NCBI GenBank assembly: GCA_944324235.1
Contig: CALUVN010000007.1
Span: 1 to 53,323, forward strand
Direction: 5' to 3'
Length of the DNA: 53,323 bases
From: Candidatus Gastranaerophilales bacterium
GTDB lineage: Bacteria; Cyanobacteriota; Vampirovibrionia; Gastranaerophilales; Gastranaerophilaceae
The notes below the pieces were generated by a model. The model saw only the letters and a program-made list of their open reading frames with translations, had not been told where the DNA came from and searched no databases. Position 1 is the stretch's first letter. Every line of letters starts with the position of its first letter. The translations under genes were made by a program, and so were the position numbers. Shown here piece by piece: positions 33 through 14,805 of the stretch.

Positions 33-1478
33 TTATTTTCCAGTGAGTTCTTTATACATTTTTAAATATTCAGCAGAGCTTTTCTTCCAAGAAAAATCAG
101 CACTCATAGCAGATTTTCTCATTGCGTTCAATACGTATTTGTCTTTGTAAACCCATTCTGCTGTTTTGATTGCATCAAGCATACAGTGCCCGTCGTAACC
201 CCAGAATTTAAATCCGTTTGAATTATCCAGCGGATAACCCGTCACGGTATCTTCCAACCCGCCGGTTGCACGGACAACAGGCAGTGAACCGTATCTCATT
301 GCTATTAACTGACTCAGTCCGCACGGCTCAAATCTCGATGGCATTAAGAAAAAGTCTGATGCCGCATAGATTTTGTTTGCCATATCTGCACGATAGCCGA
401 TATAGGCACGAACATTTGATGAATTATTTGAAAGCCAGATTAACAGGTTTTCATAATCTCCGTTTCCGCTTCCCAAAAATACAAAATCAGCGTCCATTGA
501 CCGGATTTCATTTTCGACCTGTCTGATTAAATCAATACCCTTTTGCTCAACAAGTCGAGAAATCATTGCAAACATCGGACGCTCAGGCTTGTACTCAAGT
601 CCGAAAAATTCGCACACTGCCTTTTTATTATCTTCTTTAAACTGAATAGAATTCACATCATAATTTTTTACCAGAGTTTTATCAGTTTTTGGATTAAACA
701 CATCATAATCAATGCCGTTTAAAATACCTACAAGCTTATGCGTAGCACCGCGAAGAGTATAATCCATACCTTCACCGTATTCACCTGTCAGAATTTCTCT
801 TGCATAATTCGGCGAAACAGCAATAACTTTATCGGCATAATTTATTGCACCCTTCATCCAGTTTACCCGTCCGTAATGCTCACAACCCCATTCATTATAA
901 ACAATGTCTTTACGCATATTTGCAAAGTCCAGAATATCTTCAAACCAAACACCTTGATATGCAAGGTTATGAATCTCAAAAACAGATTTAGTCTTTGACC
1001 AAAATTCATCAAATTTATAATTGCTGTGCAAATATAACGGCAGCATAGCAGTATGCCAATCATTAGCGTGGATGATATCTGCACGGAAGTTCAAGGCTTT
1101 AGCATATTCCATTACGGCAAGAGAAAAAGCTATATATCTTTCATGTTCATACCTTGTATCAAGCCACTTTGGATAAACTTCTTTAAAGCAGGTATAATAC
1201 CAGTCATTATGAACAAAAAATACATTTATATCAGTCCCCGGAAGTTTACACATGAATAATCGGAATTTATGCCCCTGATTACCAAACGTAAGCCACATAG
1301 TAGAATTTTCAAGCTCTTTAATTCCGAATTTATCAACATCAATACATCCGTGAAGCGGTGTAAAAATTGCTATCTCTGCATCTTTTTCCAAATATTTAGG
1401 CAAACTGCCGATGACGTCAGCAAGCCCTCCTGCTTTCGAAAAAGGTGCAACTTCAGCTGATGCAAATAAAATTTTCAT
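33..1478 (-). CDS. glgA: Glycogen/starch synthase (ADP-glucose type)
   Basis: Transfers glucose from ADP-glucose to a growing alpha-1,4-glucan; cytoplasmic GT5 enzyme of glycogen synthesis. The 481-residue protein has the usual family length. The N-terminal KAGGL motif (residues 15-19), which binds ADP-glucose, follows the typical MKILFASAEVAPF opening. The C-terminal half carries the GT-B nucleotide-binding features, including SRFEPCGLSQL and a RATGGL motif near the end. The start has a clear AAGGAG-type SD a few bases upstream. It lies 13 bases downstream of the zinc-ribbon gene on the same strand, so co-transcription is likely. No other glycogen gene is in the window. The 32 bases beyond its stop show nothing recognisable. 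Confidence 0.97.
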   Translation of the reverse strand: MKILFASAEVAPFSKAGGLADVIGSLPKYLEKDAEIAIFTPLHGCIDVDKFGIKELENSTMWLTFGNQGHKFRLFMCKLPGTDINVFFVHNDWYYTCFKEVYPKWLDTRYEHERYIAFSLAVMEYAKALNFRADIIHANDWHTAMLPLYLHSNYKFDEFWSKTKSVFEIHNLAYQGVWFEDILDFANMRKDIVYNEWGCEHYGRVNWMKGAINYADKVIAVSPNYAREILTGEYGEGMDYTLRGATHKLVGILNGIDYDVFNPKTDKTLVKNYDVNSIQFKEDNKKAVCEFFGLEYKPERPMFAMISRLVEQKGIDLIRQVENEIRSMDADFVFLGSGNGDYENLLIWLSNNSSNVRAYIGYRADMANKIYAASDFFLMPSRFEPCGLSQLIAMRYGSLPVVRATGGLEDTVTGYPLDNSNGFKFWGYDGHCMLDAIKTAEWVYKDKYVLNAMRKSAMSADFSWKKSSAEYLKMYKELTGK

Positions 1479-1491
1479 AAATTTCTCCTTC

Positions 1492-4400
1492 TTATGTAGA
1501 ACCGTTTTCAGGTGGAAGTCCTATTGGACCGACAACTTCTTCATCGTCGTCATCATTGTCGGAAGCATTAATATCACCTATTTCGGAATTTTCAGAGGTT
1601 TCCGTATTTTCCTCTATAGGAATATAATGTTCAGGGTCTGTATCAATTTCAAAATGAATACCGTATTTTGATGTCATATAATTAACCTGCTCCAGACAAA
1701 TTTGAGCCTTTTCCGGCTGACGCTGGAACATAAAGACTTTATATAACGCATAACGGAATAAAACAGCAAGATACTCACAAGAATTATTATTTTTTTCCAA
1801 CTGAATTAATGAATTATTAACAATACCGTACGCAACATTATATTTTCCTTGTTTTAAGTGCATTTCACACATCAAAAGCCACGCAAGATACAGTAATGTC
1901 ATCATTCCGTTAATGTTAGCCGTTTGAATAATTTTAAACAAAATCGCAGATGCTTTAACGTATGATTCCAATTTCATATAAGCGTAACCGATTAAAGCAT
2001 CACAGAACAATTCAATTTGATGTAAACGGTTTGCTTTGGCCAGAATTTTTGACATATAAATTTCTTCTGCAAAAGCTGTATAATCAAATGAAATATTTTG
2101 AAATGCATTAATTATATGGAAAAGCACCCCTGAAAACTTATCGTCATCGGATACAAGTTCTGATTGCGGTTGAATAATGTCTCCCCGTATAAGTCCCTCA
2201 AGAGACAAAAATAAATCATAAGAAACAGGTAAATCAGTGAAATTCCCCCTGACAATTTCAAAAAATTGTTTAAGATTGCCCTGCAGCTGAAGTATATTTG
2301 CAATTGAAACATAAGCTACCGCATCAAATACCATAGATTTAAAATTCTCGGAAGAAATAAACTCAGGTTTCAGAGAATCAATATTTGTGTTATTAACAAT
2401 ACTCAAAACTCTGTAACCAACATCCATACATTCGCCCATAGCTCCGATATTGAAAAGAATTTCAATATGAACAAGCGACATTAAAAAGAAATATGGATTA
2501 AAATTAGGATCAAGAGGATCTATAGATGCCCCCGGAAGCAATGAAAGTACCTTATGCATCAATTCAAGTGCATGATTGTAGTCTCCTGACTTAATACAGC
2601 CCTGAATCATCTTACTGCATAACTGTATAATTGAATCTATATTTGTTGTTTTTTCTAAGTTTCTTAAAGTAACCTCAGCAATTTCCTGAGTCTTATCCGG
2701 AATATATTCGTACAAATTATTGGAAATATTTTCATATAATTCCAACTTATAATTTTCAATTTCCTCCTGTTTTTCTTCATCTTCATTCTTATCAAGAATC
2801 TTCAATATTTCATTGGCGCAATTCAGATAAGAATTAAAATCACCCAGAGAAAGGTTAACCTGCATCAACTTTTGCCATTCCACAAGCTGAGCATCCGAAT
2901 CTCCAAGTAATCCGTACAAATATGACTTAACAGGACTTGGCATACTTTCATCCAGAACTTTAACAAAAAGTTCATTTGCCATTTGTTTAAGAGTTTCCTT
3001 ATTCATGGTATCGAGAAGATTTTCTCTCAACAAATTGTAATTAGGGAAATACATACAGTTGTTATAGAAATACAAATAGCCCATATTGGCAAGTTTATCA
3101 ATAATTTCATCAAGGTTGTCATATCCCAGACTATCAAGAGTTGCTCTGTCTATACGCGTACCAAGAAGCACAACCGTAGCGAGGAATTTCATAACATCAG
3201 GTTCGTCCTGCATCAAATTAAGACGTCTTTTGAATAATTTGTTCAAGCTGGACGGAATAATAATTGTCTTTGGATTTGAAAGATAAATAGTATTATCATC
3301 AGCGGTATAAACTTCAGATTCAACAAGATATTGAAGCGCAATATCCAAAAACAAAATGCTGCCGCAAGAGTATTTTGCAATACGATGAAAATAAAAATCA
3401 TCCATAATATTTTTATAATACTCTTTGTTCCCCTCAATCATTTTTTCAAACGGGGTAGGCTTCATATAAATTTCAGAATAATACGGTTTTGTCAGAAGGA
3501 AGTGTGATTGCTTATGAAGAGAAAAATCTTTATCATAAGATATCAAATATGAAATTTCCAATTCATCAAATGATTCAAAGAGATATTTCATAACATCATA
3601 AGAACTTTCATCAATCTTATCAAAATTTTCTATGAAAATTAAGGTATTAGGAATAGCCTTTAATATGGTTCGGAAAATATCATAATAAGTATATCTTGTA
3701 TCTTCCAGCATATCCAGCCCTCTGTCAGAGAGGGTAACCAGATCTTTTACAAGACCTGTAGGGTCAAGTGAATTAAACATAGAAAAGTCATTTTGAGAGA
3801 AAAGTTTTTGTGAAACAGTATACTCAAAAATACTTGACAATAAATCTCTAAAGAATGAATATGGAGAATATTTCATCTCATCATAACAGGTAACACTTAT
3901 TATATTATTATACAATCCGGTTTGTTCAACCTCGGTAATAACCTTAAGTGAATAAGGAACATATAAAGGATCTGTTTTAATTGCAGTAATTGACTTAGGA
4001 TTTTCCTGAATTCGCTCAAGAATTTTATCAAATACGTCAATATTTTGAATTCTTGCAAAGTGGCAGTTAATCTCATTGAAGTTAATCGTTTCAATATCAT
4101 AAATCGCATCGGGATCGACAGGGGTATCCATACGTCTTAGAGCCTGACCGTCAATTTTATCCTGTTCAATAAGCATATTCTGAACAAAATTAGGAACAAC
4201 GACTTCATCTTCGTCCTTAGGGAGAAGTTCAGCGTAATTTACGTGAATCAATGGTCTGACATCCATCTCATAAAACATTTCCATTTTGCCGTTAACCATA
4301 ACGGAATTCAATGGAGAAAGTTTATATTCTGATGAAAGACACTCGTTTATATTTGAATCGGCAATAACCTGAAACGTATTTAAAGCCTTTTCCTCTTTAC

Positions 4401-5037
4401 TTGCGGAAGTGTTAACCATGCTGATATTAAAATCAATTTTATGGTCACTTTGTGCAGTTTTAACATTACGTTTAAGAAGCATCATATTACAGCGGACAGA
4501 AGCATTTTTAAGGTTTGTCAGCTTATAGTTTAACTTGGTAATTTCGGTTGCAATGTTTACAATAGTCTGCATCGCATTATGAGCAGAACTGCTGAATGTA
4601 TAGTCTTTATTAAATCTTATAACATAACGTTCGTCAACAATCTGACGGCGCAGCCCGAGTTCTTTTACCGCGGTAAGAATAATATTATCAAGATTAACTT
4701 TAAACTTGTTTAACAGCTTTGCAGAGCCCAAGTGGATTTTCATCTCATCCATATTCGGGAAATCGATAGTAAGACATGCATAATCGTCAAGATTGGATTC
4801 GTTCAGAATAACACTGTCAAGAGTACTGAAACCGCACTTGGCACATTTTTTCCGTTCGGTCGGGTTAACCTTACCGCATTTATGACATTTGGTAATGATA
4901 ACGTAACCGCACTTTTTACATGTATTAGATTTATTTACTGTTTTACAAATCGGACAGACAAGTTTCAGAACCTTTTTACAGTTTGGGCAAACCATTGCCT
5001 TGTCATCGACTTCGTAACCGCATTTAGGACATTCCAT
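1492..5037 (-). CDS. Giant triple-zinc-ribbon protein with degenerate cyclase-like and ATPase-like regions and helical repeats
   Basis: Function unknown; 1181 residues. Seen: six CxxC pairs (C3/C6, C17/C20, C28/C31, C40/C43, C51/C54, C65/C68) forming three zinc ribbons. Next, residues about 84-280 look like a decayed class III nucleotide cyclase fold (hydrophobic strand plus acidic residue at LTIDF, then a helix rich in A/I after KDYTFSSS). Around 464-475 an LIFIENFDKID segment resembles a Walker B strand, but no Walker A P-loop is visible. The last 500 residues are alpha-helical, TPR-like, and the tail is acidic (DNDDDDEE). The order zinc ribbon, cyclase, NTPase, TPR is known for large bacterial signalling proteins; here the catalytic residues appear lost, so a scaffold role is inferred. 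There is no SD; a TATATT -10 box ends 6 nt before the ATG. It lies 61 bases after dapL. Confidence 0.75.
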   Translation of the reverse strand: MECPKCGYEVDDKAMVCPNCKKVLKLVCPICKTVNKSNTCKKCGYVIITKCHKCGKVNPTERKKCAKCGFSTLDSVILNESNLDDYACLTIDFPNMDEMKIHLGSAKLLNKFKVNLDNIILTAVKELGLRRQIVDERYVIRFNKDYTFSSSAHNAMQTIVNIATEITKLNYKLTNLKNASVRCNMMLLKRNVKTAQSDHKIDFNISMVNTSASKEEKALNTFQVIADSNINECLSSEYKLSPLNSVMVNGKMEMFYEMDVRPLIHVNYAELLPKDEDEVVVPNFVQNMLIEQDKIDGQALRRMDTPVDPDAIYDIETINFNEINCHFARIQNIDVFDKILERIQENPKSITAIKTDPLYVPYSLKVITEVEQTGLYNNIISVTCYDEMKYSPYSFFRDLLSSIFEYTVSQKLFSQNDFSMFNSLDPTGLVKDLVTLSDRGLDMLEDTRYTYYDIFRTILKAIPNTLIFIENFDKIDESSYDVMKYLFESFDELEISYLISYDKDFSLHKQSHFLLTKPYYSEIYMKPTPFEKMIEGNKEYYKNIMDDFYFHRIAKYSCGSILFLDIALQYLVESEVYTADDNTIYLSNPKTIIIPSSLNKLFKRRLNLMQDEPDVMKFLATVVLLGTRIDRATLDSLGYDNLDEIIDKLANMGYLYFYNNCMYFPNYNLLRENLLDTMNKETLKQMANELFVKVLDESMPSPVKSYLYGLLGDSDAQLVEWQKLMQVNLSLGDFNSYLNCANEILKILDKNEDEEKQEEIENYKLELYENISNNLYEYIPDKTQEIAEVTLRNLEKTTNIDSIIQLCSKMIQGCIKSGDYNHALELMHKVLSLLPGASIDPLDPNFNPYFFLMSLVHIEILFNIGAMGECMDVGYRVLSIVNNTNIDSLKPEFISSENFKSMVFDAVAYVSIANILQLQGNLKQFFEIVRGNFTDLPVSYDLFLSLEGLIRGDIIQPQSELVSDDDKFSGVLFHIINAFQNISFDYTAFAEEIYMSKILAKANRLHQIELFCDALIGYAYMKLESYVKASAILFKIIQTANINGMMTLLYLAWLLMCEMHLKQGKYNVAYGIVNNSLIQLEKNNNSCEYLAVLFRYALYKVFMFQRQPEKAQICLEQVNYMTSKYGIHFEIDTDPEHYIPIEENTETSENSEIGDINASDNDDDDEEVVGPIGLPPENGST

Positions 5038-5043
5038 ATTTTC

Positions 5044-5049
5044 AATATA
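5044..5049 (-). promoter_or_regulatory. Extended -10 box giving a probable leaderless transcript
   Basis: On the minus strand TGA-TATATT is an extended -10 (TGN plus hexamer). Exactly 6 nt separate it from the ATG of the zinc-ribbon gene, so transcription would begin at or next to the A of the start codon. No SD is present and the -35 is weak. Confidence 0.5.
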
Positions 5050-5098
5050 TCACAATATTTAAGTTTTATCTACTTTAAACGCGGTATTTTCCAAAAAA

Positions 5099-6268
5099 TT
5101 ATTTATAGGAAATACCTGCATCCTTCATTCTTTTGATAGCTTTTTTAATAGTATCAACATCTTTAGTCAAAGCAACACGAAAATAACCTTCGCCGTATTT
5201 ACCGTAACCGTTTCCAGGCGGAACAACAACGTGAGCTTTTTCAAGCATTACCGTAACAAATTCTTCGCTGGTCATTCCTTTTGGAACAGGAAGCCAGAGG
5301 TAGAAAGTTGCTTTAGAAGGTTTAATATTCCATCCGAGTTCACGGAAACCTTCTTCTGCAGCGTCTCTGCGTTCCTGATACATCTTATTCAAATTCTTAA
5401 TGTAAGAAGTATCTACATTAAATGCAGCAACAGCCGCATCCTGAATTGCTTTAAATGTACCGCTGTCAATATTATTTTTAATAGTGCCGAGAGCTTTCAC
5501 GGCATCCGCGTTACCACAGCAGAATCCGACACGCCATCCTGTCATATTATAAGATTTTGAGTGTGAATAGAATTCCAGAGTAACATCCATTGCTCCCTCA
5601 ACTTCAAGAACAGATGGTGCAACATAGCCGTCATAAGTCATTTCTGAATACGCCATATCTGAGCAAAGAAGAATATCATATTTTTTACAAAAATCAACTG
5701 CTTTTTTATAGAATTCTTTTGTTGCAACAGCACCTGTCGGATTGTTAGGATAATTCAGGAACATAATTTTAGATTTTTTAGCAATATCTTCAGGAATTGC
5801 ATCTAAATCCGGCAGATATCCGTTTTCTTCCAAAAGCGGCATTGAATAAGGCGTACCGCCTGCAAATATCGTTGCGTTTTTATAAACAGGATACCCCGGA
5901 TCAGGAATCAGTGTATAATCACCTTTATCAACAAAAGCAAAAAATACGTGCGCAATAGCTTCTTTTGAACCGATATTGGCAAGCATCTGGGTATCAGGAT
6001 TAAGTTCAACGCCAAAACGTTTTTTCATCCACTCACAAGCTGCTTTTCTGAATTTTTCAGTACCGTTATAAGGCGGATAATCATGATTTGCTGGATTATC
6101 AATTGCCTTGTGCATTTCTTCTACAACAGGAGGAAGAGTCGGAGTATCAGGATCGCCAATACCAAGACTTATAATATCAACACCTCTTGCTTTTGCTTCG
6201 GCAATTTTTCTGTCAATTTCCGCAAACAAATACGGCGGAATTTTTTCCAAACGCTCTGATACTTTCAT
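5099..6268 (-). CDS. dapL: LL-diaminopimelate aminotransferase
   Basis: Converts tetrahydrodipicolinate directly to LL-2,6-diaminopimelate with glutamate as amino donor. This is the short route to diaminopimelate used by cyanobacteria, plants, chlamydiae and some anaerobes. Fold type I PLP enzyme of 389 residues; the Schiff-base lysine lies in SHSKSYNMTGWRVGF (K238), and LNYPNNPTGA (residues 171-180) is the conserved PLP/substrate loop. The N-terminus (ERLEKIPPYLF) is typical of the DapL subgroup. An AAGGAG SD precedes the ATG. It is divergent from ruvB across 73 bases that hold a 16-bp palindrome. With lysA elsewhere in the window it supplies peptidoglycan and lysine precursors. Confidence 0.95.
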   Translation of the reverse strand: MKVSERLEKIPPYLFAEIDRKIAEAKARGVDIISLGIGDPDTPTLPPVVEEMHKAIDNPANHDYPPYNGTEKFRKAACEWMKKRFGVELNPDTQMLANIGSKEAIAHVFFAFVDKGDYTLIPDPGYPVYKNATIFAGGTPYSMPLLEENGYLPDLDAIPEDIAKKSKIMFLNYPNNPTGAVATKEFYKKAVDFCKKYDILLCSDMAYSEMTYDGYVAPSVLEVEGAMDVTLEFYSHSKSYNMTGWRVGFCCGNADAVKALGTIKNNIDSGTFKAIQDAAVAAFNVDTSYIKNLNKMYQERRDAAEEGFRELGWNIKPSKATFYLWLPVPKGMTSEEFVTVMLEKAHVVVPPGNGYGKYGEGYFRVALTKDVDTIKKAIKRMKDAGISYK

Positions 6269-12192: not shown

Positions 12193-14805
12193 TTATGCTT
12201 GTTCGCGATCTTTAATAAATTTAATTTCGTCATTATCGACATCAATAATAACTTTGTCGCCTTTCATGAATTTTTGAGAAAGTATAAGCTTAGACAGAGG
12301 GTTTTCGACCATTTGTCTGATAACACGCTTAAGCGGTCTTGCGCCGTATACAGGATTAAAGCCGCGCGTTGCAAGAAATTCTTTGGCTGCTTCGGTTATT
12401 TCAAAATCGAGTTCCTGATCTTTTAACAATCTTCTCAGGTAATCCATTTGTATATCAACGATTGCTGACAATTGTTGCAGAGTAAGGGCTTTGAAGAATA
12501 TTGTTTCGTCAATTCTGTTCAAGAATTCCGGTTTAAATCTGCTTCTTAACACAGCCATAACTTTTTCTTTTGTTTCATCAAAATCCTGTTGTGTGACAAG
12601 TTTATTAAGGGAATCTTCAAGGATTATATCGCTTCCGATATTACTTGTCATAATTATCAGAGTATTTTTGAAGTCAACTGTTCTGCCTTTTGAATCTGTC
12701 AAACGACCGTCATCAAAAATTTGAAGCATTATGTTGAACACATCAGGGTGTGCTTTTTCGATTTCATCAAACAGTACAACCGAATAAGGTTTTCTTCTTA
12801 CAGCTTCAGTAAGTTGACCGCCCTCGTCGTAGCCGACATAACCCGGAGGTGCACCGACCAATCTTGCTACGTTGTGTTTTTCCATATATTCTGACATATC
12901 TATACGGATAAGAGCATCTTCATCGTTGAACATAAATTCAGCCAATGATTTTGCAAGTTCAGTTTTACCTACACCTGTAGGCCCTAAGAAAAGGAACGTA
13001 CCAATCGGACGTTTTGGGTCTTTTAAACCGGAGCGGGCACGTCGGATTGCGTCTGAGACGGTTTCTACAGCTTCATCCTGACCGATTAAACGTTTGTGAA
13101 GAATTTCTTCCATATTAATCAGCTTTTGTTTTTCGCTTTCTACGAGTTTTGCAACAGGGATACCTGTCCATTTGCTTACAACATTTGCGATATCTTCGTC
13201 GTCAATTTCTTCTTTAAGAAGTTTATTTTCAGAGCGGTCGCGGTTTTGGCATTCTTTAAGCTGTTTTTCCAACTGCATCAATTTGCCGTACTTAAGTTCT
13301 GCAGCAGTTTGTAAGTCTGTATTACGTTCGGCTTCTTCAATTTGTTTTTTAACCTGATCGATTTCATCCTTGATTGCTGCTTCACCGATAATTGATGCTT
13401 TTTCCTTTTCCCACTGACATTTCATAGCGGAAATTTTTTCTTCAAGGGTGGCTATGTGTTTAGAAATATCTTCGACTTTAGCTTTTGCCTCATCGCTTGT
13501 TTCTTTTTTAAGTGCTTCACGCTCAATTTCCAGCTGGATTTTTTGTCTCATCATAGCATCGATTTCTTCAGGCATAGAATCTATTTCAATACGTAAAGAC
13601 GATGCTGCTTCATCAATAAGGTCAATTGCCTTATCAGGAAGGAATCTGTCTGTGATGTATCTGTCCGAAAGTTTTACAGCCTGAATAAGAGCACTGTCCA
13701 GAATACGAACACCATGGTGAACTTCATATTTTTCTTTCAGACCTCTAAGAATACTTATTGTATCTTCTATGCTAGGTTCGTTGACAAGTACAGGTTGAAA
13801 ACGTCTTTCCAGAGCAGGGTCTTTTTCAATATATTTTCTGTACTCGTTAATAGTAGTTGCACCGATGGTTCTCAAAACACCTCTTGCAAGCATCGGCTTA
13901 AGGAGGTTGCCGGCATCCATTGAACCCTCAGTAGCGCCTGCGCCGACAACAGTGTGAAGTTCATCAATAAACATAACAATTTCGCCGTTAGAATCCTCTA
14001 CTTCTTTTAAAACAGCTTTCAAACGTTCCTCGAACTCACCTCTGAATTTAGCACCCGCAACAAGTGCACCGAGGTCAAGAGAAATAAGTTTTACGTCTTT
14101 TAAACTTTCAGGGACATCCCCTCTAACTATACGTTGAGCAAGCCCTTCAACTATTGCGGTTTTACCGACACCCGGTTCACCAATTAGCACAGGGTTATTT
14201 TTTGTACGTCTGTTCAAAACCTGAATAATTCTTCTGACCTCTTCGTCTCTGCCGATTACAGGGTCTAATTTTCCCTTTCTGGCAAGAGCAGTCAGGTCTG
14301 TTGAATATTTTTCAAGAGCTTTCATATTTTCTTCAGCATTTTTATTATCCACTTTTTTATTACCTCTTATTTTTTTCATTGCATTTAAAACAGAATTTGA
14401 ATTTACCCTGAAGTCGGATAAAATCTTCTGAATATTTGACCCGTCGAGTTTTGTCATAGCAAGCAGAATATCAGCGATGTCAATAAATTCGTCCTTAAGC
14501 TCATTAGCTTGCTCATCCGACAAATCAAGAAGCTGCACTGTCTGGTTCGACAAAAACAACTGCTGCCCGTTCACCACTCCCGATATAACAGGGAAAGACT
14601 TTACAGCGCCTACGACTTTGTCTATAAAACCCTGATTTAACAATTTAAGTTCTGTTAAATAATCTTTTATAAGCCCGCTGTCCTTAATCATCGCAAGCAT
14701 AATATGCTCAGGCTGCATCTCCGTATTTTTATATGAATTCATAATTGCATTTGCGGATGACAAAATCTCTTGCGAGTAATTTGTGAATCTGTTCAAATCA
14801 ACCAT
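12193..14805 (-). CDS. clpB: ClpB disaggregase
   Basis: Hexameric AAA+ chaperone that rescues aggregated proteins together with DnaK. 870 residues: N-domain (1-150), NBD1 with Walker A GEPGVGKT, a coiled-coil middle domain (about 410-530, [10 protein letters not shown] to [13 protein letters not shown]), NBD2 with Walker A GPTGVGKT and sensor features, and the ClpB-type C-terminus without an IGF ClpP loop. SD AAAGGAG is 8 bases from the ATG. The 162 bases upstream have TTGACT followed by AT-rich sequence, but no CIRCE element, so the heat-shock regulator is not evident. Confidence 0.97.

Follow-up and report, generated by a model that had tools for sequence, protein, structure and literature searches.

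Related proteins and motors

Parts of the gene described here have counterparts in several known systems. In Cyanobacteriota, large proteins that combine zinc ribbons, a class III nucleotide cyclase, an AAA_16 (STAND) NTPase and TPR, a layout of the soluble adenylyl cyclase type, retain the metal-binding Asp pair, the base-binding Lys and Asp, the transition-state Asn and Arg, and the Walker A motif (L241-L247). MalT, Apaf-1 and PH0952 (6mfv) contain NTPase, helical and winged-helix domains, bind nucleotide via a P-loop and then switch, and in MalT and PH0952 the C-terminus consists of helical repeats. A precedent for keeping a cyclase domain without catalytic residues comes from mycobacteria, in the cyclase-homology proteins Rv1359 / MSMEG_0545: a degenerate class III domain, in which a first metal Asp and an Arg are missing, is part of an expressed protein for which a non-enzymatic role has been proposed (PMC3961136). 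Finally, ZorA and ZorB of the Zorya anti-phage system assemble in a 5:2 ratio into a peptidoglycan-binding motor that is driven by ions and needs the long tail of ZorA for defence (PMC11890865).

Gene and domain architecture

The window, that is, the whole stretch of DNA that was analysed, comprises 53,323 nucleotides of a Candidatus Gastranaerophilales contig (CALUVN010000007.1). Our study concerns a gene of 1181 amino acids at positions 1492..5037, here called X, which lies on the minus strand, as do its domains and motifs, its promoter, glgA and dapL. Its named orthologues come from MAGs that mostly bear the label Candidatus Gastranaerophilales or Melainabacteria, which places the window in a gut-dwelling member of this order; public records labelled Brachyspira, Fusobacterium and Clostridiaceae (L108, L117, L136, L168) also carry Gastranaerophilales-type sequence and are apparently mislabelled. 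The original prediction, made from the letters of the window, had described X as a pseudo-enzyme signalling scaffold with three zinc ribbons, a cyclase-like region, a Walker-B-like strand without a P-loop, and TPR-like helices.

The ribbons are borne out by a Pfam DZR match (E 4e-9), and twelve cysteines form three C4 units: C3, C6, C17 and C20 (4978..5031), C28, C31, C40 and C43 (4909..4956), and C51, C54, C65 and C68 (4834..4887). Eleven of these cysteines are invariant among 41 family members and the twelfth is kept in more than 90%; the ribbons look structural. When X was scanned directly against Pfam and NCBIfam, the zinc ribbons and sub-threshold TPR hints were all that came back, and a search of PDB sequences with X found only the ribbons and weak TPR matches, so that structure prediction was needed to recognise its folds.

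For the cyclase-like region, an AF2 model of residues 72-300 was built from an alignment of 55 sequences (pLDDT 83, pTM 0.78). All 50 of its best Foldseek matches in the PDB were class III adenylyl or guanylyl cyclases (best E 1e-7), and VIA structural realignment gave Z 17.1 over 169 residues to Pseudomonas aeruginosa CyaB (3r5g) and 16.3 to CyaC, so a class III fold is predicted for a degenerate homology domain spanning approximately residues 75-264 (4246..4815). Compared with cyclases of the same order by hhalign, the cyclase domain of the X orthologues alone reached a probability of 13 and that of the paralogues that keep a P-loop 83; pooling the two raised it to 87, whereas shuffled controls stayed below 2. 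Homology to class III cyclases was settled by the alignment with the cyanobacterial relatives. The following core was modelled over residues 298-720 (45 sequences; pLDDT 89, pTM 0.86) as a STAND-type NTPase plus winged helix, with the NTPase-fold region at approximately residues 326-560 (3358..4062). Its best structural matches by Foldseek and VIA, over about 320 residues, were Apaf-1 (Z 18.4), MalT (18.1) and the STAND-TPR protein PH0952 (6mfv; 16.0), with which it would share the NTPase, helical and winged-helix fold. The two models thus predict both folds that had been guessed from the sequence. A reading of X as a MalT-like transcription factor was dropped, as no DNA-binding domain was seen.

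The TPR-like helical region (approximately residues 700-1130; 1648..2940) has weak backing in the window sequence; stronger backing comes from a comparison of the family profile with TPR structures and from the relatives, with whose TPR part it is collinear in hhalign; like MalT and PH0952, X thus has a helical-repeat C-terminus. It is followed by an acidic, weakly conserved tail (1495..1635).

Two lost active sites

As the original prediction had proposed, catalytic residues are not retained in the cyclase domain. Across 59 aligned X orthologues, the first metal Asp position (D92 in the window protein; 4762..4764) is occupied by D, E, T, K or Q, the second is not Asp in 56, and the base-specifying and transition-state residues (Lys, Asp, Asn, Arg) are unconserved. 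Judged by these alignments, X is a pseudoenzyme whose cyclase site has been lost. None of the same 59 sequences has a Walker A motif: its former site now reads TDPLYVPY in the window protein (residues 355-362; 3952..3975), and the Lys position is Pro in 47 of them. The Walker-B-like strand, TLIFIEN (residues 465-471; 3625..3645), keeps the first member of its acidic pair in 58 of 59 orthologues, while the second is D in 16 and N in 40; a Walker-B-like strand without a P-loop is seen in all 59. Close by, the sequence DESS (3601..3612) retains D476 in every orthologue and S479 in 58. Throughout the family core the P-loop has been replaced by a conserved string, AIKT..LY.PYSLK, whose conservation points to a newly acquired role more than to drift.

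These sites bear on the possibility that X is a sensor of nucleotides or metal, in which the dead cyclase or NTPase pocket would bind a ligand and X would signal its level. Class III pockets are able to bind ligands without catalysis, both folds are predicted to be intact, and D476 and S479 are kept; however, the absence of Walker A with its mostly Pro substitution, together with the unconserved base-binding and transition-state positions, means that neither known nucleotide site is recognisable, and we regard the sensor as improbable. The nucleotide part of the original prediction is not supported: such sensing by X appears unlikely, and less likely than a pseudoenzyme scaffold. The genome of the window contains a strong class III cyclase match elsewhere (PF00211, E 1.7e-28; G000:C4:4422-4958), and most relatives have one too, which makes it probable that these bacteria do use cyclic-nucleotide signalling.

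Ancestry and order of the losses

The domain order of X had been likened to that of cyclase-NTPase-TPR proteins, and this likeness proved to be homology from end to end. Six proteins of other classes in the phylum have ribbons, an intact cyclase, an intact P-loop of the GEAGIGKS type and a long C-terminus, with the cyclase motifs FTDVSGF, KYIGDAIM and VMGDTVNLAQRME in most of them. The hhalign match of the X orthologues to these intact relatives begins at the first ribbon and reaches the final repeats, covering 1048 columns (probability 99.5, E 2.5e-22); for the paralogues in the order of X that bear a P-loop, the E-value was 3.5e-53. X therefore shares the domain order of the cyanobacterial proteins and is collinear with them throughout, whereas none of their catalytic or Walker A residues is present in X as a conserved residue.

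The paralogues (L031, L044, L046, L048, L060 and others) resemble X in their ribbons, STAND core and TPR, and those with a cyclase domain likewise have a dead one: N, Q or S stands in place of the second metal Asp, and the transition-state segment is deleted or changed. In contrast to X, all 25 that were aligned have an intact Walker A. Proteins without a P-loop form a single clade (support 100), with which L042 and L043, from other families of the order, group in the tree; these two carry the P-loop remnants GETNTGKLN and GNKEKGIKF. A zinc-ribbon/class III cyclase/STAND NTPase/TPR ancestor would thus have lost cyclase catalysis first and its P-loop second, the latter in one ancestor of the X clade. 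Rv1359 is comparable in its degenerate cyclase domain but belongs to another phylum, and a double loss with a STAND core is not described for it (PMC3961136).

The paralogue in the genome of the window (985 aa, without a cyclase domain) lies at G000:C19, about 27.9-30.9 kb (L251:7917-10871), where the genes for an ECF-type sigma factor and a DUF1822 protein of 1228 aa immediately precede it; L168 and L178 are similar. X might then be a pseudoenzyme subunit that pairs with this protein and regulates it, as dead subunits do in NTPase assemblies. Of the 42 family genomes that contain X, 37 gave a second match, even with the window protein as query, the paralogue retains GVRGIGKS, and it adjoins a sigma factor in a DUF1822/sigma-factor operon; but members with a P-loop also occur in genomes without X, and hence have no need of it, and the two genes have no genomic linkage. 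We consider this pairing a poor candidate, about as improbable as the sensor.

Promoter and gene neighbourhood

X had been suggested to have its own leaderless promoter, and this is supported by an extended -10 element, TGATATATT (5044..5052), whose hexamer starts 12 nt before the ATG. Among 63 X orthologues, 50 have such an element 11-13 nt ahead of the ATG, compared with 34 of 398 other open reading frames at the same loci; it is usually of the extended form TGnTATAAT, and a Shine-Dalgarno-like sequence is present in two of the 63. On the strength of these upstream sequences, the leaderless start of X is conserved.

The gene order dapL / X / glgA was confirmed. The gene for glycogen synthase, glgA (33..1478), directly follows X in 47 of the 56 loci where this position is visible, and in 18 of 48 measured junctions the two genes share 1 or 4 nt, with glgA always preceded by a Shine-Dalgarno-like sequence; it is important to note that these locus counts include close relatives. 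On the other side, dapL (5099..6268) adjoins X only in closer relatives (22/62). Since the linkage to glgA is kept and that to dapL is local, X and glgA make up the conserved unit, with the promoter before X serving both. The gene glgA is nearly universal in the order and present both with and without X, which rules it out as a phyletic partner of X and indicates that glycogen synthase has no need of it. In deep lineages X occurs without an adjacent glgA. One deep clade (L139:8142-8735, L141, L145) has in its place a 190-aa gene without a Pfam match that overlaps X or nearly does, and in another (L144:9520-10164, L147, L161) X is followed by a conserved gene of 214-234 aa belonging to no known family.

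It could be supposed that X, having lost its catalytic motifs, is a gene heading for loss that has been retained by chance. Three observations contradict this. First, measured against the closest species for which dS could be used, X has a dN/dS of 0.045 as a whole and of 0.033 in each of its two dead domains, values that are approximate because dS is high or saturated. Second, open frames of 1100-1200 codons persist across the family. Third, the promoter and the neighbour are conserved. Decay is refuted on these grounds and its probability is negligible; an old loss, confined to one clade, combined with purifying selection identifies X as a pseudoenzyme rather than a decaying gene. Together with the predicted folds and the end-to-end homology, this conserved loss supports well the pseudo-enzyme scaffold of the original prediction.

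Co-occurrence with a ZorAB-like pair

A search with one ZorA-like protein found this family in 46 of 98 genomes, all of them MAGs and some incomplete, and these are exactly the genomes with X. Direct search detected X in 44 of the 46; the remaining two (G011 and G048) hold a divergent copy that falls inside the X clade and from which all three zinc ribbons are gone (L051 and L050). None of the 52 genomes without a ZorA-like protein has X. Most ZorA-like proteins carry a conserved acidic motif of the DDLF type at the C-terminus, possibly a docking peptide. A connection between the loss of ribbons in G011 and G048 and a loss of DDLF was dropped, as the full-length proteins end in SQLFE and a single lineage is involved.

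On a species tree made from one gene (ClpB) by a quick method, covering 70 genomes, X and the ZorA-like gene changed six times and always together; four of these changes lie on strongly supported branches, and the sign test on the four independent co-changes gave 0.125. The window has its ClpB-type marker protein at 12193-14805, and several relatives have a second, more distant copy. The distances of X and ZorA correlate beyond those of ClpB (partial rho 0.84), with none of 500 permutations as high. In the genome of the window, X and the pair are on different contigs (the pair is at G000:C29:27341-28249 and the adjoining gene), so linkage alone is not what holds them together there. In deep lineages, including two other families, X divergently adjoins the pair (L128, L130, L134, L135, L144, L147, L161, L252, L253). 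The co-occurrence could in part reflect a single locus that was gained or lost as a whole, and X and the pair may be retained for a shared process without touching.

The pair resembles the Zorya motor over the core of ZorA and the full length of ZorB, with PADLOC E-values of 1e-21 to 1e-26 for ZorA1 (core only) and 1e-50 to 1e-56 for ZorB1 (full length). An anti-phage system, with the motor as sensor and X as a novel signalling or effector component, would agree with these matches and with the position of X beside the pair in deep lineages. Unlike Zorya, however, the ZorA-like protein has about 300 residues, without the long cytoplasmic tail on which defence is reported to depend (PMC11890865), and the pair scores below the NCBIfam cut-offs (73 against 100 and 75 against 400). 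Moreover, X and ZorA track the species tree in a manner close to that of housekeeping genes, and X is joined to glgA, neither of which is typical of a mobile defence locus. No known Zorya effector was recognised among the neighbours scanned. We therefore find a defence system rather implausible, and somewhat more so than sensing or pairing with the paralogue.

Discussion

The loss of both sites, the strict preservation of the protein and its exact co-occurrence with the ZorAB-like pair indicate that X is probably a protein-binding relay and not an enzyme. On balance, we favour, with some reservation, a conserved double pseudoenzyme that couples a ZorAB-like motor to a cytoplasmic output and whose expression is tied to glgA. 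X would be a cytoplasmic adaptor, with ribbons, dead cyclase/NTPase core and TPR offering large protein-binding surfaces, and would link the peptidoglycan-anchored, ion-driven motor to that output; most likely it works by binding, accompanied by a change of shape, and not by making or binding cyclic nucleotides. In most of the family its expression would be tied to glycogen synthase, and the state of the envelope or of the ion gradient may set glycogen storage. We infer both the physical partnership with the motor and the influence on glycogen synthesis from sequence comparisons. Whether X, ZorA-like and ZorB-like proteins constitute a previously undescribed relay from envelope to metabolism, with glycogen synthase as its co-regulated output, is a more speculative proposal, which we hold as possible but doubtful; equally tentative is the corollary that the short-tailed motor signals via a soluble double-pseudoenzyme STAND/TPR scaffold instead of a nuclease.

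The two strongest leads, the conserved link to glgA and the ZorAB-like pair that accompanies X without exception, were not visible in the window when it was first read. Among the open-access papers that were searched, we found none that joins Gastranaerophilales to a pseudo-cyclase or a Zorya theme. X provides a well-documented bacterial case of a multidomain signalling enzyme that lost two active sites in order, the cyclase and then the NTPase, and, because intact relatives persist in the phylum and P-loop-bearing ones in the order, the change from an enzyme into a scaffold can be followed column by column. By occurring in exactly the same genomes, the ZorAB-like motor also becomes a testable partner of X, and this suggests that Zorya-type motors operate outside phage defence in these hardly studied gut bacteria.
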